Shown one piece after another: positions 9,165 to 25,896 of a stretch of DNA of 25,896 bases. The notes below the pieces were generated by a model. It did not search any database and was not told where the DNA came from. It saw only the letters and a list, made by a program, of their open reading frames with translations. The position numbers were made by a program, and so were the translations under genes. Every line of letters starts with the position of its first letter. Positions within the stretch are counted from its first letter, which is position 1. Source of the DNA: a virus; the IMG/VR virus record IMGVR_UViG_3300020596_000498, positions 1 to 25,896 of that record. The stretch is one strand, 5' to 3'.

Positions 9165-9503
9165 ATGAGTGACAATGAACTCTGGCCGACAGTCGAAGTC
9201 GAGTGGGAAGGGAAAAAGTATACCTGTAACCTCGATTTCGGCTGGGCTTATCGCCTGGACGTTAAATGCGGCGTCAACGTTCTCGACTTTGGTAACCTCA
9301 CCGAAAAAGCACAGGGTCCCAAGGATTACGTAGGCTATGTATTTGCCGCTCTCAGCGAGCACCTACCACAGCTCACGCCCGACCTCGTCGCTAGCAAAAA
9401 AGGTAAGGCTGTGGTCGCTGAAGGAATCAAGATTTTCGCCGCGTTCATCGCCACACTGGCTCCAGCAGACGCAAAAAAAAAGAGCGAGCCGGTAGTCCCC
9501 TAA
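9165..9503 (+). CDS. Tail assembly chaperone, short form (lambda G-like)
   Basis: This 112-residue protein is the upstream product of the tail assembly chaperone pair, which coats the tape measure during assembly. It starts three bases after the tail tube gene. The sequence VEVEWEGKKYTCNLDFGWAY and the following VKCGVNVLDFG recall the chaperone family opening. The end carries nine A residues in a row (9473-9481) that contain the heptamer A AAA AAG in the zero frame (9476-9482). Most ribosomes should end at the TAA at 9501-9503; a fraction should slip to the -1 frame and make the long form. Position just before the tape measure and the slippery site are the main evidence. Confidence 0.85.
   Translation: MSDNELWPTVEVEWEGKKYTCNLDFGWAYRLDVKCGVNVLDFGNLTEKAQGPKDYVGYVFAALSEHLPQLTPDLVASKKGKAVVAEGIKIFAAFIATLAPADAKKKSEPVVP
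9476..9482 (+). other. Programmed -1 frameshift site (A AAA AAG)
   Basis: The heptamer matches X XXY YYZ, the classic bacterial -1 slippery sequence, and is read in frame as A AAA AAG in the short chaperone gene. The -1 frame stays open from here through 9826 with no stop. No strong downstream hairpin was seen by eye. Confidence 0.85.
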
Positions 9504-9829
9504 AGCACTTTGATTGGGCCGGGATGTGGGCTGTTGCCGTCTACGATCTCGGCCTTTCAACGGAACAATTCTTTCAGCTTAATCTTCGAAAATTCAATGC
9601 GCTCGTGGAGCGATTCGAGAGCGAGCAAGAGCGTGCCGACTTTCGTGCCGCGCAAATCTGCTCAGTTGCTGCGAACATCATGGGCAAAAAAGAGGACGGG
9701 ACACCATTCGGTCCCGGAGATTTCTTCCCCTCATTGAGAAGCGTTGATGGGACCAATCGTCGAGAGATGAGCGGGGAAGAAATCATGAACGGCCTGCTGA
9801 TGCTCTATCCACGCGATAACCCGCACTAA
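9482..9829 (+). CDS. Tail assembly chaperone, frameshifted extension (lambda T-like part)
   Basis: After a -1 shift, translation continues as ERAGSPLKHFDWAGMWAVAV and runs to the TAA at 9827-9829. The resulting fusion would be about 221 residues (106 from the first frame plus 115). The second part has the pattern YDLGLSTEQFFQLNLRKFNA, in which the 'F-W-x-L-T-P-R-x-F' type segment is typical of the T domain in lambda-like and rhizobial phages. An ATG at 9524 could in principle start a free protein, but it has no usable Shine-Dalgarno and lies inside the conserved part. The T domain normally binds the tape measure, which follows the IS element and one small gene. Confidence 0.85.
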   Translation, partial: ERAGSPLKHFDWAGMWAVAVYDLGLSTEQFFQLNLRKFNALVERFESEQERADFRAAQICSVAANIMGKKEDGTPFGPGDFFPSLRSVDGTNRREMSGEEIMNGLLMLYPRDNPH

Positions 9830-9858
9830 ATCAATTACTTATCAGGTAAGCCGTAAAA

Positions 9859-9878
9859 CCTAGCCCTTTAGGGCTAGG
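9859..9878. repeat. Left-end hairpin of element 1
   Basis: CCTAGCCC and GGGCTAGG form a perfect 8-bp stem around TTTA. Structures like this are recognised by TnpA on single-stranded DNA. The outer edge overlaps the tnpA stop codon (9874-9876). Confidence 0.88.
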
Positions 9879-10287
9879 ATATAAGGCTTTGATTGTTAAT
9901 ATATTCTTTTAGCACTTCCAACGAAGCTCCTCCACAACTCCCGACGAAGTAGGAGGGACTCCAAAGATGTTCTCTGTGAGTCGTACCTTTTAAAGCTGGA
10001 TAGTCCCTTCTCAGTAATCTACTACTTACTCCCTTAAGGCTATTAACTAGAGAGGAAAGAGAATGTTTTGGTGGATATTCCACATGCAGATGAACATGAT
10101 CACCTTCACCGTTACACTCAATAAGCTCAGCCTCGAACTTGTCACAAACATCGGCAAAGATATCTTTCATCATTGCAACGTGTTTCGCCTCAAATACTTT
10201 ACGCCTGTACTTGGTAACAAACACCAAGTGACAGTGAAGGGCATAGACGCAATGATTACTTATCTTAATTTTAGTTGACGTGCTCAT
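9874..10287 (-). CDS. tnpA: Y1 HUH transposase TnpA of IS200/IS605 family
   Basis: TnpA cuts and rejoins single-stranded IS ends. The HUH motif is His64-Val-His66 in the segment EGDHVHLHVEYPPK, and the nucleophile is Tyr129 in EVLKEYINNQ. Further family patterns are HLVFVTKYRRKVF (residues 20-32) and VNSLKGVSSRLLRRDYP. At 137 residues it has the normal full length. The start is taken as the ATG at 10285-10287 (MSTSTKIKIS); an earlier in-frame ATG at 10317 would add ten residues that lie within the other gene's leader. It is divergent from tnpB with only 22 bases between the starts. The dimer should act on both ends of this element and perhaps on element 2, whose right end is nearly the same. 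Confidence 0.95.
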   Translation of the reverse strand: MSTSTKIKISNHCVYALHCHLVFVTKYRRKVFEAKHVAMMKDIFADVCDKFEAELIECNGEGDHVHLHVEYPPKHSLSSLVNSLKGVSSRLLRRDYPALKGTTHREHLWSPSYFVGSCGGASLEVLKEYINNQSLIS

Positions 10288-10309
10288 TGACCTAGCGTAC
10301 ATTTGTATA

Positions 10310-11386
10310 ATGGCCAAGTCAATGAAAACTTTTCAGTTTAGAATTAAAGACAGTAAGTGCTTTAAGCAACTAGAAAAACACGCTAGTGCTGTAAATTTTG
10401 TCTGGAACTATTGCAACGACATCTCTCAGCAATCGGCTAAAAAAAGAGCATCTGGATCAAATAACAGGTGGATATCTGAATTTGATCTAAATTACCTGAC
10501 CGCAGGAACATCTAAAGCTTTAGGGCTAAACGCTACCACTATTCAAAGCATTGCTGGCGAGTTTGTAGACAAGAGAAACGCTAGAAAGAGACCTCGCTTA
10601 AAGTGGAGATCGTACAAGAAAAACCTCGGATGGATACCTGTAAAAGCTGGCGGTATATCCTTCAAAGACGATAGCTTTAAGTATTGTGGTAAGGCGTATC
10701 GTTTCTGGAAGTCCAGAAAAATTGAAGGTAAGGTTAAGACTGCATCAATCACACAGGACGCTCAAAAGCGATGGTACGTCAACGTAACCTGTGAAATACC
10801 AGAATGTGACACAACTAAATCCACATCAACAATCGGTGTAGATTTAGGTCTCAAGGATCTAGCTGTTTGCTCAGATGGTTGCATCATTGAAAACCCAAGA
10901 ACACTAAGAAGATATGCCGATAAACTGGCAGTAGCTCAAAGAGCAAAGAAGAGAAAACAAGTTACAAAAATTCACGCAAAGATTAAGAACGTGCGTAAAG
11001 ATTTTCTGCACAAAGCTTCTACGGCACTCGTCACGAAGCACAAACAAATTTTCGTTGGTAACGTGAGCAGCTCCAAACTCGTAAAAACCAAAATGGCGAA
11101 ATCCGTTTTGGATGCAGGATGGAGCATGTTCAAGACAATGCTTAAATACAAATCCATTAGGATTGGTGTTGACTACCAAGAGACCGACGAAAGGTACTCT
11201 ACTGTCACTTGCTCAGATTGCTTCGCAAGAAGCGGCCCGAGTGGACTAAGTGCTTTAGGGATTAGGGATTGGGTATGTTCAAAGTGTGGTAGTCAGCATC
11301 TACGAGATGTAAATGCAGCCAAGAATATTCTCAATTTCGCTCTGGGACATCAGAGTCAGTCAGTGGAATCCCCTGCCTTTAGGTAG
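10310..11386 (+). CDS. tnpB: TnpB, RNA-guided nuclease of IS605 family, atypical RuvC-II
   Basis: TnpB proteins use an RNA made from the element's right end to cut matching DNA next to a short motif. From the ATG at 10310 the protein is 358 residues; ATG at 10322 is another option. RuvC-I is IGVDLGLKD (Asp178) and RuvC-III is LRDVNAAKNI (Asp333). A zinc ribbon is formed by Cys301, Cys304, Cys323 and Cys326. At RuvC-II, where most TnpBs read 'IEDL', this one has QIFVGNVSSS, with Gly250 in place of Glu. A Glu-rich stretch, YQETDERYST, just before the zinc ribbon offers Glu294 as a possible relocated acid. The stop codon lies inside the right-end hairpin, as is usual. Confidence 0.94.
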   Translation: MAKSMKTFQFRIKDSKCFKQLEKHASAVNFVWNYCNDISQQSAKKRASGSNNRWISEFDLNYLTAGTSKALGLNATTIQSIAGEFVDKRNARKRPRLKWRSYKKNLGWIPVKAGGISFKDDSFKYCGKAYRFWKSRKIEGKVKTASITQDAQKRWYVNVTCEIPECDTTKSTSTIGVDLGLKDLAVCSDGCIIENPRTLRRYADKLAVAQRAKKRKQVTKIHAKIKNVRKDFLHKASTALVTKHKQIFVGNVSSSKLVKTKMAKSVLDAGWSMFKTMLKYKSIRIGVDYQETDERYSTVTCSDCFARSGPSGLSALGIRDWVCSKCGSQHLRDVNAAKNILNFALGHQSQSVESPAFR

Positions 11387-11419
11387 GGGAGGATGTCAAC
11401 CTTCTTTACGCCTGTTCAC
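11280..11419 (+). ncRNA. Putative omega (guide) RNA of element 1
   Basis: In IS200/IS605 elements the guide RNA comes from the 3' end of tnpB plus the right end, and the guide is the first 16 to 20 bases beyond the element. Here that would place the scaffold over about 11280-11399, including the 11370-11389 hairpin, and the guide at 11400-11419. The 5' limit is a guess. The family mechanism is established; that this copy is expressed is inferred. Confidence 0.4.
11370..11389. repeat. Right-end hairpin of element 1
   Basis: CCCCTGCC and GGTAGGGG pair around TTTA with one G-T wobble. GAAT (11366-11369) lies directly before it, and the element ends with TCAA ten bases after it. The tnpB stop TAG is within the right arm. 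Confidence 0.88.
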
Positions 11420-11428
11420 GGTGAACGC

Positions 11429-11896
11429 ATGAAAAACTATCAAATAATCTTAAGCCTCGTGGGCGTTGCGCTTGTGGGTGTTTTTTTGATTCTTTTTTAC
11501 GACGGCTACATCGGCTTCCGGAAAATGCAGGATCGGATTCGGGCCGCTGACTCACGAAGCCGCAAAGCAATTACATTGCAGTTCGTAGAGAAACTCGCAG
11601 CAAGAGATCCGGTTGAGAGTACCACATTCCAACTCCAGGAACTTTCGAAGTGCATAGCCGTGTATAAGCAAGTGCACGGAGTATTCCCGTCAAAAGTTTC
11701 TGATGTGCACCATCTCACCCTTGAGGGCAACTGCGGCTTTCTAATGAGAGATGTCGACGCGTGGCAGACACCGATCGAGTTCACTCACGGCGACGGAACC
11801 TTTCAATTGGCTAGCCTTGGGTCGGACCGAAAACCCGGCGGGGAAGGCTTATCGCAAGACATCATCATCTCGCGCTCAATTAAAGCAAACGAATAG
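11429..11896 (+). CDS. Membrane-anchored GspG-like (pseudopilin-like) protein
   Basis: From the ATG at 11429 this protein has 155 residues. Residues about 5-24 (QIILSLVGVALVGVFLILFY) form one transmembrane helix. The C-terminal half resembles the globular domain of type II secretion GspG: LSKCIAVYKQVHGVFPSKVS, then RDVDAWQTPIEFTHGDGTFQ, then LASLGSDRKPGGEGLSQDI, which parallels 'DPWG-x-P-Y-x-Y ... S-x-G-x-D-x-x-x-G-G-x-G-x-x-x-D-I'. No prepilin peptidase site (Gly-Phe-x-x-x-Glu) is visible. Two cysteines could form a disulphide. GGTGA lies four bases before the ATG; an ATG at 11393 inside the IS is ignored. Finding it between tail chaperone and tape measure is unusual. Function unknown; a moron or host-surface role is possible. 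Confidence 0.75.
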   Translation: MKNYQIILSLVGVALVGVFLILFYDGYIGFRKMQDRIRAADSRSRKAITLQFVEKLAARDPVESTTFQLQELSKCIAVYKQVHGVFPSKVSDVHHLTLEGNCGFLMRDVDAWQTPIEFTHGDGTFQLASLGSDRKPGGEGLSQDIIISRSIKANE

Positions 11897-11955: not shown

Positions 11956-14724
11956 ATGAAGAAGAAGGGGTCCAAAGAATACCTAATGTGGGTGGAACTC
12001 CGTGGAACGACGGAGAAATTCTCCCAGGACATGAATAAAGCCGTAGGCCAAGTTACTAGGGCCGAACAGCAAATTACAGGGCTCGCTCGAAACATCCAGA
12101 AGGTATTCCACGCCGCATTAGTCATTGGCGGCGTTGCGGCAATTAGCAAACTGACGTCGCAGCTTGGGAAACTCGCCGAGCAGGGGGAAGTTGCTGGTTC
12201 GATAGCAGATGGGTTCCACCGTCTAGGCGGCAGTTCAGTAGAAATCGAGAAGGCCAGACGTGCAGTGCTCGGCATGGCCGACTCTTACGACCTGATGCAA
12301 ATAGCGAACAAAGGTCTCATAGCCAACCTTCCAGGATGGAATGAATCGTTCGCCTCGATAGCAGATTTGGGAGCGCGGGTTGCAGATGTCCTGAACCAAG
12401 ACACGACACAATCAATCGAGCAGCTTTCAGACGCAATCATTCGTGGCCAGTCGAAAGCTCTCATACCCCTCGGCTTCACATTCACCGACACCGCGAACAA
12501 AGCACTAGTTTCTGCCGAGGCGCTGAGACAACTGCCGGAAGTTCTTTCACGTCTTGCTCCCGCCACCGACTCGGTTGCCAACGCGCAGACTGCGTTTAAC
12601 AAGGCGCTGGGCGAGGCAGTTAAAGAAGTTGGTATCGCGATCAACGAGAACGAAACGCTTATACTCGCGTGGCGCGAGCTGGAGGCAGCGGTCAAATCCA
12701 TCGATTGGAAGGCCATTGGCGACGATATCGCGTCCACTGCAGGGATATTCGCGAATCTTACAAGCACAGTGCTACCGCACGTAACAGCAGCCTTCCAAGG
12801 TTGGGCCTACGAAGTCGATAAACTCTTCGGGAACGGGGCGAGCGGTCAGCAGAAGCGTCTCCTCGACGAGATCCACCATCTCGAGGGAAACTTAAAATCT
12901 CTCGATTCTTGGAAACCTGCAAACCTTGTCGCATGGCTAATCGGTCAGCACGGGAGCACAAGGGACACGACTCTTCAGCAACTTGAAGCCAAGCGCAAAG
13001 CTCTTCTTGAGATCGTCCACGCAACGAACGCCTTCGATGGAGGTCCTAGCAATGAACCCAACTTCAAGCCCCTCCTGGGGGCGGACCCGGAGGAAGCGAA
13101 AAACAAGGGCCGACAAGTCGTCAAGGATGTCAAAGAGGCACAAAAGGCTGCGGCAGTTGAGGTTAGCGACGAGTGGGCTGAGCAGCAGAAGAGAGCCCAC
13201 CGAGAATCGGTTCAATTCTGGGAAAGCACATTCCAGAATGCGATCACCGGCATGACATTCGATCTCGAGGATGCGTTAAAGCAAGCCGCTGTAGGATTTG
13301 CATCCGAGATGGCAGCCTCGTTTACTGGCTTGAGTTTCGAAGGTGGCATTAAGGGCTTCGGATCCAAACTCGCCGAAAGCATTTTCGGTACTGGTGCGGG
13401 ATTGCTAGGACGACCCGAAGGCGTCGCGGGCCCTCTCATGGAAAACGGATCGTTCATGGGGATGGGGGCCGCCATTAGCTCGTTCGTTCCAGCCGCGGCC
13501 GCAGCAGTAGGTACGTATCTCGCCGGACGATCACTCCAAGACTTGATCCACGGTAAAACCGACAATTCGCTGCAGGGTATCGCTGGTCGCGCGCAGCTAG
13601 CTATTTTATCCAGCGGGGTCTCTGAAGTCGCTCGACTGTTCTCGGCGTTCGGCGGATCCAATGCTGGACACGATGCACGTAAAAACGTGGCAGGCTTCAT
13701 TGAGAATGCGACCGGGAAAGATTTTAAGGTCGGTGCGTCATCGAAGTTCGATACCGATGATGGCTTCGCCGCGCTCCGCAAACTCGACAAAGAGACACAG
13801 GATTTTTTCAAAGGGTTCGGGCAGGTTCTGACATCGGTTGTCGGAGTCGGTTCAGATGCCTCGGAGCAGATTGCTTCGCTCTTGGTTGAGAACACCGACG
13901 GTAGCGTTAACAAAGCGAAGGCGATGTGGAAGAGCCTCGGAATGAGCTTTGAGGATGCGCAGGAAAAAATAATCGCGCTCGGTATCGAAGCCGGAAAAAC
14001 GTGGGATCAAATAGAAGGCGAGATTGCTGCAGCGGAGCGTTTATCAAGACCCGGTCGTGATGGCAAGGGAGACTACGTCGGCGCTTTCCAGGACATCATC
14101 GACAGCAATGCGAAAGGTATGGAGGCCACGAACGCGGTCGTCTCGAACGGCATTGAGGCTGCAGAGAAGCAATTCAAAAACTTCGAGGAATGGAAAGCAG
14201 CACTCAAGACCCAGTTTGCTCCAGAGCAAGTTGATATTTTCTTCCAAGCTTTATCGCAGCGCGGCGTAACTAATTTTGACCAGCTCGAGAACGCATCCGT
14301 TCGGACATCGGGAGCAATTATCGCGGATATGAAGAATCTCGGGTTCGCGTTCGAGGACGTCACTGCGAAGATTAAAGAGGCAGAACTCGCGATGCGCGAT
14401 TTAACCAGCAGCTCTCCAAATAATGTTGAAGGCGTAGATATTCCAAAGTTCGGGAAAGGCGGCATTGTCACACGACCCACACTCGCGATAGTCGGCGAAG
14501 CTGGCCCTGAAATAATCATGCCGATGAACAAACTTTCCGGAGCGAACCCGGCCATGCGCGCTGCCGGCGGCGGGGGCATGGTAGTCAACATCGACGCTCG
14601 AGGGGCTGCGCCCGGTGTCGACCAAGCAATTCTCCGAGCAATGCGCGAAGTAAGCGAAGCCTCAGTCGCACGCGGAATAAATAACTTTGTGCGAACGCAG
14701 TCGCGCGGAGGACGCGGAGTATGA
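11956..14724 (+). CDS. Tail tape measure protein
   Basis: The 922-residue protein sets tail length and lines the tube. The start (VELRGTTEKFSQDMNKAVGQ) is typical of tape measures that open with a short beta segment and then long helices rich in Ala, Glu and Lys. A hydrophobic Gly/Ala-rich segment occurs around residues 500-525. Near the C-terminus lies the common tape measure motif FGKGGIVTRPTLAIVGEAGP followed by EIIMPM (ending at residue 857). By the usual 1.5 angstrom per residue the tail would be roughly 140 nm long. No lytic transglycosylase or peptidase domain is evident. The ATG at 11956 has only a weak ribosome site. The stop overlaps the next gene as ATGA. Confidence 0.93.
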   Translation: MKKKGSKEYLMWVELRGTTEKFSQDMNKAVGQVTRAEQQITGLARNIQKVFHAALVIGGVAAISKLTSQLGKLAEQGEVAGSIADGFHRLGGSSVEIEKARRAVLGMADSYDLMQIANKGLIANLPGWNESFASIADLGARVADVLNQDTTQSIEQLSDAIIRGQSKALIPLGFTFTDTANKALVSAEALRQLPEVLSRLAPATDSVANAQTAFNKALGEAVKEVGIAINENETLILAWRELEAAVKSIDWKAIGDDIASTAGIFANLTSTVLPHVTAAFQGWAYEVDKLFGNGASGQQKRLLDEIHHLEGNLKSLDSWKPANLVAWLIGQHGSTRDTTLQQLEAKRKALLEIVHATNAFDGGPSNEPNFKPLLGADPEEAKNKGRQVVKDVKEAQKAAAVEVSDEWAEQQKRAHRESVQFWESTFQNAITGMTFDLEDALKQAAVGFASEMAASFTGLSFEGGIKGFGSKLAESIFGTGAGLLGRPEGVAGPLMENGSFMGMGAAISSFVPAAAAAVGTYLAGRSLQDLIHGKTDNSLQGIAGRAQLAILSSGVSEVARLFSAFGGSNAGHDARKNVAGFIENATGKDFKVGASSKFDTDDGFAALRKLDKETQDFFKGFGQVLTSVVGVGSDASEQIASLLVENTDGSVNKAKAMWKSLGMSFEDAQEKIIALGIEAGKTWDQIEGEIAAAERLSRPGRDGKGDYVGAFQDIIDSNAKGMEATNAVVSNGIEAAEKQFKNFEEWKAALKTQFAPEQVDIFFQALSQRGVTNFDQLENASVRTSGAIIADMKNLGFAFEDVTAKIKEAELAMRDLTSSSPNNVEGVDIPKFGKGGIVTRPTLAIVGEAGPEIIMPMNKLSGANPAMRAAGGGGMVVNIDARGAAPGVDQAILRAMREVSEASVARGINNFVRTQSRGGRGV

Positions 14725-20829: not shown

Positions 20830-20950
20830 TTTGACATACTCCCCCTCTTTTAAGAGGGGGATTCTAGGTGAGAATATTTATGCAATTACACACAAACATT
20901 ATCAGAGCTAAGTTTGACGCTTCTACCTTGATTGCCTCGAAGAACCGAAG
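20815..20950 (-). ncRNA. Putative omega (guide) RNA of element 2
   Basis: By analogy with element 1, the right end of element 2 (on the left in this orientation) should give a structured RNA containing the hairpin at 20842-20860, with a guide read from the phage sequence just outside TCAA, roughly 20811-20830 on the minus strand. Limits are approximate and expression is inferred. Confidence 0.33.
20842..20860. repeat. Right-end hairpin of element 2
   Basis: On the + strand CCCCCTCTT, a short loop and AAGAGGGGG form a stem of about nine pairs. ATTC on the inner side is GAAT on the minus strand, and the outer side runs through TATGTCAA, read on the minus strand. This is the same plan as in element 1. 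Confidence 0.8.
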
Positions 20951-22064
20951 TTCTCTTTGGTCTTACGCCAAGTCCACGTCCTTTCACGGTATGTCCTACC
21001 GCAAGAATGTTTTTAGCTGCATTGACATCTCTGTCATGCAGCTTCTTACACTCTGGACAAGTCCACTCTCTGATGTCGAGAGGAAGTTTTTCCACAATGT
21101 AAGAACATTCATTACAAGTCTTAGAGCTTGGAAAGAATCTGTCTATTACCGCCAGTTCCTTACCATACCACTTAGCCTTATATTCGAGCATGTTTCTAGC
21201 CATATCAAAGGAAGCATCAGACAAACTTCTAGCAAGCTTTCTATTTCTGACCATTCCTCTGACATGCAGATCTTCTATGCAAATGGTGTCGAATCTCTTG
21301 ACCATATCCAAAGAAAACTTATTAAGGTTGTCTTTCCTGCAATTTGCAACATGCTCGTGTATCCTTGCTACTTTAATCTTTTGAAGTTTCCATCTATTAG
21401 AGCCTTTAGTTCTTCGACTAAGAATCTTTTGAGCTTTTGCAAGCCGACTAAGATTAGCAGCAAGATATCTAGGGTTAGAGATGGTTTCTCCATTAGACAA
21501 AGTAGCGAGTCTATTGATCCCAAAATCAATCCCTATACTCTCGGTAGTTTTTGGAAGGGCTATTTTATCGGGTTCGTCCAGGCACAAAGTGACAAAGTAC
21601 TTTCCACTACAGCTCTTGGTTATCGTAACCGTAGTAGGAATACTCTGAAACACTCTGCTCCAGACAACCTTTATTTGCCCAACCTTACTAAGAGTAAGGA
21701 TCTTATTTTGAGAATTGTATTTGAACGCCTTGCTCGTGTACTCAGCGGATTGCTCACCGGACTTTTTCTTAAATCGAGGATACTTAGATCGCTTATCAAA
21801 GAAATTAACAAAGGCTACTTGAAGATGTCTTATAGCTTGCTGAGGGGGAACACAGGAGTTTTCAAGCGCCCACACAGTTCTATGTCTTTCCCTTGTCCAC
21901 TCAGCAGAAGCTTTATGGTAGTTGGGTTTTCCACCCTCTTTGAAAGTTCTCCCCCACCAATTAAGCGCGAAATTGTAAGCATACCGAGAGACTCCAAAAT
22001 CTTTAGAGAGAGCAATCCTTTGTTGCTCGTTGGGGTAGGCTCTAAATGTATATCTTACTTTCAC
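20886..22064 (-). CDS. tnpB: TnpB, RNA-guided nuclease, IS1341-like lone copy
   Basis: This 392-residue TnpB is complete and shows the canonical triad: Asp180 in SIGIDFGINR, Glu264 in DTICIEDLHVRGM, and Asp346 in LHDRDVNAAKNIL. The zinc ribbon is Cys317, Cys320, Cys336 and Cys339. The N-terminus VRYTFRAYPNEQQRIALSKD is the usual helix-turn-helix opening. The start is GTG at 22064; the AT-rich leader on its 5' side (22065-22139) has no clear Shine-Dalgarno and only a weak -35/-10 pair (TTGCAC and TACATA, 15 apart). A 438-residue open frame on the other strand covers the same stretch and is taken as a shadow. It is only distantly related to the first TnpB, so the two were not made by one duplication. 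Confidence 0.94.
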   Translation of the reverse strand: MKVRYTFRAYPNEQQRIALSKDFGVSRYAYNFALNWWGRTFKEGGKPNYHKASAEWTRERHRTVWALENSCVPPQQAIRHLQVAFVNFFDKRSKYPRFKKKSGEQSAEYTSKAFKYNSQNKILTLSKVGQIKVVWSRVFQSIPTTVTITKSCSGKYFVTLCLDEPDKIALPKTTESIGIDFGINRLATLSNGETISNPRYLAANLSRLAKAQKILSRRTKGSNRWKLQKIKVARIHEHVANCRKDNLNKFSLDMVKRFDTICIEDLHVRGMVRNRKLARSLSDASFDMARNMLEYKAKWYGKELAVIDRFFPSSKTCNECSYIVEKLPLDIREWTCPECKKLHDRDVNAAKNILAVGHTVKGRGLGVRPKRTSVLRGNQGRSVKLSSDNVCV

Positions 22065-24614: not shown

Positions 24615-25896
24615 GCTGCTTAAGCTTCTTGGGGTGTCTCTAGTTTTGCTACTAGCGCCGTCGCTCGCCTTCGCTACGCCGCAGAATTACACGGGCTTTG
24701 AGCTCGGAGTTACGAGTACCGCGGCTGAATCAAATCTAAACGGAGGCACCTTCTCCATTCAGGGCACTACCAAGCGGACCGGTGCTTTTGCCCTAGAAAC
24801 TAATCCCACCACAACGGCAGTCGGGTGGTGGGGCTATGCATTAAACGGTACAAATGGCGTCCCGACGACATTCTCACTCTCTGATATCTATGTGCGCTTT
24901 GCCTTTCGCTATGCGACTAAAGCCTCGAGTAACTCCGAGGAAATATTCGGCATCAGAAGGTCCGCAGGTGAGCAGGCAACTCTGCGTCTGAACAGCTCGG
25001 GGTTCATAGAATTGTATCAAGACGGTGCCACGACACTGGTGACCACCGGAACCGCAGCGCTCAGTGCTGGAACTTGGTATTTCATCAAGGTAAGAATTCA
25101 AACAAGCGCCACTGGAGCGTATACCGTCGGTCTTTACGACGCGAGCTGTACCTTGACTGAGAACCTCACCGGCACAGCAAACTTTGGAACAGCAAATTCG
25201 GAAGGGGTACGGTTCGGCAAAATTACAGATCGAAACGGCAACACCGTTGATTATTTCTATGACGATGCTTTAACCGACAACGCTTCCATGCCGGACTGCG
25301 GAGCAAACTTGGCGATGCTTCCTGACGGGGCGGGTTACTCGACTCAATGGACTACGGGCACGAGCAACCTTTTTAGTGCTGTCGACGAAATTCCCGTTGA
25401 TGATAATACGAGCTACATAAAGAGCGCGAGCGGTGCCGGCGACGTCAGTTCCTTCACTCTACAGAATACCGGAACGGTTGGTATCAGTGGAGTGATCAAT
25501 GGCGCAAAAGCCTGGGCATATACCCGCGAAGATACGACGGTCACGAGTGCCACGAAGGTACGAATTAGACTTGCCGGAGTGAATCTCGATAATACGACCG
25601 GCCGCAACGGGACGACCGCGTATAGCAGTATTATTAAAATAGCCCCGACAGATCCCAGCAGCAACGCTTGGACGACTTCAAATCTGGATTCAACAGAGCT
25701 CGCCGTAGTCGAGGGTAATGCCGTCGCCGTGAGAGCTTCAACACTTGCAATGATGGTCGATTTTACGGTGCCAACCGCCACACCCACGGCGACACCTACT
25801 CCGACCCCAACCGCCACACCCACGGCGACACCTACTCCGACCCCAACGCCGACGAACCCCCCAGGCGGATCGTCGGGAACCGGAACGTTAAGCATG
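24601..25896 (+). CDS. Secreted LamG-like protein with Pro/Thr linker (runs off the window)
   Basis: This frame is open from the ATG at 24601 to the window end (432 codons). A signal peptide is plain: KLLKLLGVSLVLLLAPSLAF, then Ala before TPQ. Residues about 30-230 resemble a LamG/concanavalin-like beta sandwich: FSIQGTTKRTGAFALET, IYVRFAFRYATKASSNSEEI, LSAGTWYFIKVRIQTSATGA and GNTVDYFYDDA. Residues about 235-385 are a second beta-rich part of unknown type. Residues 391-418 are a Pro/Thr linker made of two exact 36-base copies plus part of a third, followed by NPPGGSSGTG. The protein would continue beyond the window, probably into another domain. It overlaps the previous gene, so it belongs to the same transcript. 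Function unknown; a surface-binding or surface-modifying role is a guess. Confidence 0.8.
   Translation, partial: MATTKLLKLLGVSLVLLLAPSLAFATPQNYTGFELGVTSTAAESNLNGGTFSIQGTTKRTGAFALETNPTTTAVGWWGYALNGTNGVPTTFSLSDIYVRFAFRYATKASSNSEEIFGIRRSAGEQATLRLNSSGFIELYQDGATTLVTTGTAALSAGTWYFIKVRIQTSATGAYTVGLYDASCTLTENLTGTANFGTANSEGVRFGKITDRNGNTVDYFYDDALTDNASMPDCGANLAMLPDGAGYSTQWTTGTSNLFSAVDEIPVDDNTSYIKSASGAGDVSSFTLQNTGTVGISGVINGAKAWAYTREDTTVTSATKVRIRLAGVNLDNTTGRNGTTAYSSIIKIAPTDPSSNAWTTSNLDSTELAVVEGNAVAVRASTLAMMVDFTVPTATPTATPTPTPTATPTATPTPTPTPTNPPGGSSGTGTLSM
25771..25853 (+). repeat. Tandem 36-base repeat encoding a PTATPTATPTPT linker
   Basis: Two exact 36-base copies (25771-25806 and 25807-25842) and part of a third follow each other in the reading frame of the last gene. 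Each encodes the 12-residue unit PTATPTATPTPT. Exact identity at all bases, including third positions, suggests recent slippage or unequal exchange. Confidence 0.9.

Follow-up and report, generated by a model that had tools for sequence, protein, structure and literature searches.

Phage morons and membrane exclusion proteins have been described before, and the closest counterpart of the gene considered here is gp15 of phage HK97, a single-helix membrane protein that, according to two papers, blocks the DNA entry of superinfecting phage (PMC10883804; PMC4737114). In the HK97 record this gene is annotated as a "moron product"; the frameshifted tail protein flanks it on one side and the tape measure gp16 on the other, a putative terminator follows it, and the hydropathy profile of its 62 aa shows a single N-terminal helix. 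Comparable by description are TP-J34 Ltp and Sie2009, phage-coded, membrane-anchored exclusion proteins that block DNA injection, of which Ltp targets the tape measure (PMC10883804); these differ from the protein analysed here in their Gram-positive hosts and in their domains. Phages that block type IV pili also exist (PMC11436027). A phage protein with a GspG or T2SSG domain in an exclusion role was not found in the literature searched, many subscription journals being outside its coverage, and a GspG domain in such a role appears to be new within that literature.

The gene lies in a window of 25,896 bases, the whole stretch of DNA that was analysed, which is an IMG/VR virus record and probably a fragment; the gene order is terminase, portal, capsid, tail tube, chaperone, tape measure and tail tip. 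It occupies positions 11429 to 11896 on the plus strand, with an intact frame, and codes for 155 aa with a single N-terminal membrane helix followed by a GspG-like domain of the T2SSG family. These coordinates, taken over from a sequence-only reading of the same DNA, are correct: the ATG at 11429 has, four bases 5' of it, a GGTGA (11420 to 11424, plus strand) that is likely to act as a good ribosome-binding site. A 167-aa frame can be opened at the ATG 11393, but this codon falls inside the right end of an IS200/IS605 element and is probably not the genuine start. The N-terminal helix that had been claimed is borne out by hydropathy over residues 6-24 (11444 to 11500, plus strand; mean Kyte-Doolittle 2.83), and we infer a topology in which this helix spans the inner membrane and the domain is exposed to the periplasm.

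The resemblance of the C-terminal part to GspG is above chance. Pfam T2SSG scores 27.5 bits (E 3.3e-6, gathering score 21) over residues 62-145 (11612 to 11863, plus strand; stretch 74-157 of the 167-aa frame, profile positions 11-105 of 108), and hhalign against a profile of nine GspGs gives 97.5% (E 6e-12) over residues 59-147. In blastp against the frames of 159 loci, mostly fetched for T2SSG proteins and including some GspG loci found with the same query, the best matches are true GspGs at about 31-33% identity (E down to 2e-10, against 0.16 at best for the reversed-sequence control), whereas the cellular T2SSG proteins without a prepilin start match more weakly. Alignments also show a loop, SLGSD...QDI (11825 to 11860, plus strand), whose aspartates D133 and D144 have the same spacing, 11, as in Vibrio vulnificus EpsG (3gn9); a calcium role may be assigned to them by analogy with the E. 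coli pseudopilin 3G20, in which the corresponding aspartates bind calcium (PMC3396595). With the GspG core and both aspartates kept in the aligned sequence, the periplasmic domain probably still folds. A single-sequence fold reached a pLDDT of 53, and the fold search made from it was discarded as meaningless. A three-sequence model of the domain is fair (pLDDT 69, pTM 0.61) but leans toward the GspG fold because its alignment includes the GspG domain of another virus contig, L126, described below; type IV pilins and EpsG make up the top seven of its 19 structural neighbours, at weak Z scores of 2.6-4.1, and Foldseek found no match to it at E 0.001.

A pseudopilin requires a prepilin peptidase site, with a glycine before the helix and a glutamate at +5. 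A motif scan for this site (G|xxxxE) found none anywhere in the product, while the same scan was positive in 75 of the 80 T2SSG loci from 100 Pseudomonadota genomes, the negatives being L196 and L199 (a +5 Glu without the G), L202 (contig end), L208 (a broken lipoprotein frame) and L210 (probably spurious). The GspG equivalog model of NCBIfam, TIGR01710, gives 22.4 bits, far under its cut-off of 88.85. There are no T2SS genes beside the gene either, its neighbours being tail genes and the IS. The proposal of a GspG-like pseudopilin therefore stands for the domain family, since Pfam T2SSG is above its cut-off, and is not supported for a pseudopilin in the strict sense: the product resembles GspG in its globular domain, its aspartate loop and, presumably, the periplasmic side on which the domain lies, but is without the peptidase site, the +5 Glu, the T2SS operon and an equivalog score that would pass. 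Since the site and the +5 glutamate are lost, a fixed membrane protein that does not enter a pseudopilus is to be expected.

The neighbours are those named by the sequence-only reading, which had placed the gene between a tail chaperone and a tape measure. Upstream, on the plus strand, lies a chaperone pair of the lambda G/T type, with a G-like part at 9165 to 9503, assigned on Phage_TAC_11 (15.4 bits, below the cut-off of 27.8), its position and the A-run at its end, and a T-like part at 9524 to 9829 (Phage_tail_T, 31.4 bits, cut-off 25.9). The run of nine A at 9470-9503 closes the G-like part and the T-like part is in the -1 frame; a programmed frameshift as in lambda G/GT is likely at this overlap. 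Downstream, 59 bases from the accessory gene, the ORF at 11956 to 14724 (plus strand) is called the tape measure because of its length, its place and the tape measure annotation found at the same place in Roseobacter phages; Pfam and PHROG scans of it returned nothing significant.

That this slot does not normally hold such a gene is also supported, as there is no membrane ORF between chaperone and tape measure in any of the nine related slots compared, and L010, L016 and L022 have them directly adjoining or overlapping. The nine slots come from 14 loci, from which L011, near-identical to L010, and L012, L013, L014 and L019, which have no tape measure ahead of the marker gene in the stretch, were left out. 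A GspG HMM had no match in 1.6 Mb of related virus and prophage sequence (100 loci), Pfam T2SSG had none in 11 related virus records, and the domain of the product has no match among phage protein families. The GC3 of the gene is 0.56, with 0.57-0.66 in the structural genes measured and 0.41-0.47 in the IS genes. Inserted between genes that are adjacent in related phages, 11429-11896 is an accessory gene and, by definition, would count as a moron. Unlike HK97 gp15, it was found to have no terminator separating it from the tape measure, and the four promoter-like sites in the region equal the count expected by chance and all lie inside the IS. No repressor or integrase was seen among the ORFs scanned in the window, the record being a fragment.

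Directly behind the T-like chaperone frame, within the tail operon, sits an IS200/IS605 element (9839 to 11399, no strand assigned, inserted after TTAC) that is absent from the sequence-only description. It consists of TnpA at 9874-10317 on the minus strand (Y1_Tnp, 142.6 bits) and TnpB at 10280-11386 on the plus strand (OrfB_IS605, 56.9 bits), and its ends, which we take to lie at about 9839 and 11399, were read with the rules for IS605 ends. By these ends, about 38 bases would separate chaperone and accessory gene if the element were removed, and the element stops about 29 nt upstream of the ATG 11429. The best plasmid match of TnpA is from Deferribacter (62.7%). As judged from GC3, the IS is a separate event and not part of the accessory gene; the idea that it was the carrier that brought the gene in was rejected, because the gene lies outside the inferred end and has a phage-like GC3. 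A second TnpB-like ORF, recognised by reading at 20886-22064 (minus strand), has no obvious TnpA and a GC of about 0.40 and lies between tail genes, so that a single structural operon carries two insertions of this sort. At the end of the window, tandem 12/36-base repeats (25771-25853) fall in an ORF at 25413-25895 (minus strand) and encode GVGVAVGV-type repeats.

Close relatives of the product were found neither in viral contigs, nor in genome contigs, nor in 198 Nitrospirota genomes. The phage collection gave no real match (best E 1 among the 106 records admitted at E up to 10), and the plasmid collection gave five weak ones, four annotated as GspG and one unannotated. The tape measure has no relative in the viral contigs and a single weak one in the phage collection, and the relatives of the terminase in genomes belong to several phyla, at 32-42% identity (80 loci retained of 245). 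Two "Acinetobacter phage MD-2021a" records, the sole GenBank phage records with a GspG, were not accepted as carrying phage genes, because in the record examined, a 220-kb contig (L106, CAKLQH020000005.1), the neighbours round GspG are chromosome-like (priA, corC, lnt). PADLOC reported nothing for the product, and the EexN family lipoprotein model NF033894 did not match it at E 1.

Alignments led by GspG brought to light two further virus contigs with a T2SSG domain, L126 and L133, a number that is a lower bound since the viral scans used short patterns. The first codes at L126:9812-10447 for an EexN-GspG fusion lipoprotein of 211 aa that passes two curated models at once, the EexN family lipoprotein NF033894 (45.9 bits, cut-off 33) and the GspG model TIGR01710 (135.3 bits, cut-off 88.85), on a contig that carries terminase, portal, head and anti-repressor genes. 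The GspG portion of the fusion shares 82% identity with GspG from Burkholderia arboris, a protein with a normal GFTLIE start and, by reading, T2SS-like neighbours, and the prepilin site is lost in L126. The second, at L133:7659-8189, is a membrane-anchored T2SSG protein (32.1 bits, cut-off 21) whose gene directly follows a CI-like repressor and precedes an integrase, an interval that is a usual location of prophage-expressed genes; an ORF with an SNase domain and a small signal-peptide-like ORF adjoin it. On a Paraburkholderia plasmid, moreover, an orphan GspG-like gene (L128:2827-3291) encodes a membrane helix without a prepilin site; it passes TIGR01710 and stands away from T2SS genes, next to HTH and sialidase genes. 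All four proteins carry a GspG domain on a non-prepilin anchor. The window product matches those of L126 and L133 weakly in blastp (E 0.007-0.008 as single comparisons). With the L126 protein it shares a phage-coded GspG domain on such an anchor, but the latter has an EexN-family lipoprotein anchor and a domain close to Burkholderia GspG, and it lies outside the tail slot.

Domains of this family on non-prepilin anchors also occur in cells. Six of 20 hand-picked Nitrospirota loci (L256, L257, L258, L260, L261 and L262) code for proteins 358-410 aa long that end in a T2SSG domain and have no prepilin site; they resemble the window product in having the domain behind a membrane segment, and differ in their length, in a cytoplasmic N-terminal domain, which we take to be DUF4388-like, and in a different type of loop. 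The prepilin motif is present in 12 of the 20, a proportion that is not a rate because the loci were hand-picked and nearly all were low scorers, and the remaining eight comprise the six long proteins, L249, cut at a contig end, and L255, which is unclear. One Pseudomonadota T2SSG locus has a lipoprotein-like frame, broken in the assembly, and a control of 61 Chloroflexota genomes contained no T2SSG. Since cells also hold such proteins, a T2SSG domain without a prepilin start does not by itself mark a phage protein; the unusual features here are the place in the tail operon and the presence in independent phages.

Taken together, these comparisons lead us to favour, at somewhat less than an even chance, the reading that the product is an envelope exclusion moron of the gp15 kind built from a GspG domain. 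Held in the inner membrane by its N-terminal helix, with the GspG-derived domain standing in the periplasm, it would act in the envelope of an infected or lysogenic cell and block the incoming DNA of a later phage, for example through contact with the entering tape measure or with those components of the host envelope on which that tape measure relies. The exclusion activity, its timing and its target are what we infer from these likenesses. Among the roles suggested by the sequence-only reading (an effect on host secretion or pili, a block of superinfection, a membrane-linked part in tail assembly or DNA entry), the block of superinfection has the best support, all of it indirect, from the gp15 slot, the EexN-GspG fusion of L126 and the repressor-integrase context of L133, while the effect on secretion or pili is a rival and the tail-assembly option is little supported. 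With gp15 the product shares the slot and the single N-terminal membrane helix, and gp15 is a moron too; but exclusion was tested for gp15, to which our product is likened by place and build, and the 62 aa of gp15 hold no folded periplasmic domain comparable to T2SSG. As the two have no sequence similarity (blastp E 21), the likeness is one of place and build and not of kinship.

Other observations speak against exclusion, above all the likely timing of expression. With no terminator before the tape measure and no promoter-like site other than those within the IS, the gene may be expressed only late, together with the tail genes, a pattern that fits exclusion more poorly than prophage expression would. 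The proteins of L126 and L133 are encoded outside any tail slot and have nothing but the domain in common with the window product, cells hold T2SSG on non-prepilin anchors as well, and PADLOC is blank.

A decoy function, in which an uncleavable GspG-like protein binds the assembly platform or the pseudopilin partners of the host T2SS or type IV pili, jams the fibre and so alters secretion or removes a receptor, would account for several of the same observations. Within the compared set, true GspGs are the nearest matches of the domain, with cellular non-prepilin proteins behind them; the aspartate loop is kept; the window product, L126 and the orphan plasmid protein L128 have all lost the prepilin site; the L126 domain is very near a Burkholderia GspG; and a block of type IV pili by phages is documented in the literature cited above. 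An identity of about 31-33% to any GspG, however, is low for a binding mimic, and the sequence of the GspG membrane helix, through which pseudopilus subunits contact one another, is not kept. We regard a decoy as unlikely.

Distinctly unlikely is a captured host gene without a phage function, decaying in an insertion-prone region beside an IS. It would agree with there being one known example and no close relative in the viral, phage, plasmid and genome collections searched, and with an IS ending about 29 nt from the start codon, but not with an intact frame, a good ribosome-binding site, the retained loop residues and the occurrence of this kind of protein in two other phages. Very unlikely is a membrane-linked component that is produced along with the tail and serves assembly or DNA entry: the gene does lie on the same strand in the tail operon, 59 bp from the tape measure and with a phage-like GC3, but the nine related slots without a membrane protein imply that a tail of this type can do without it, and no phage family matches its domain. 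That the product is a true GspG pseudopilin, entering the pseudopilus of the host and altering what it carries, is extremely improbable, for the Pfam T2SSG match and the kept core are outweighed by the missing peptidase site and +5 glutamate and by the low TIGR01710 score.

The exclusion reading can be carried one step further, to the possible, though rather doubtful, proposal that phages and plasmids repeatedly put a GspG domain on fixed anchors, be it a helix, a lipoprotein or EexN, and that these proteins would form an unrecognised class of envelope exclusion proteins, of which 11429-11896 would be one placed in the HK97 gp15 slot. If this is true, a fold of the secretion systems would have been turned several times into a phage weapon or shield, and the slot between chaperone and tape measure, so far represented by one HK97 gene, would become a wider place to seek exclusion genes. 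The EexN-GspG fusion offers a connection between entry exclusion in plasmids and exclusion by phages that can be put to the test.
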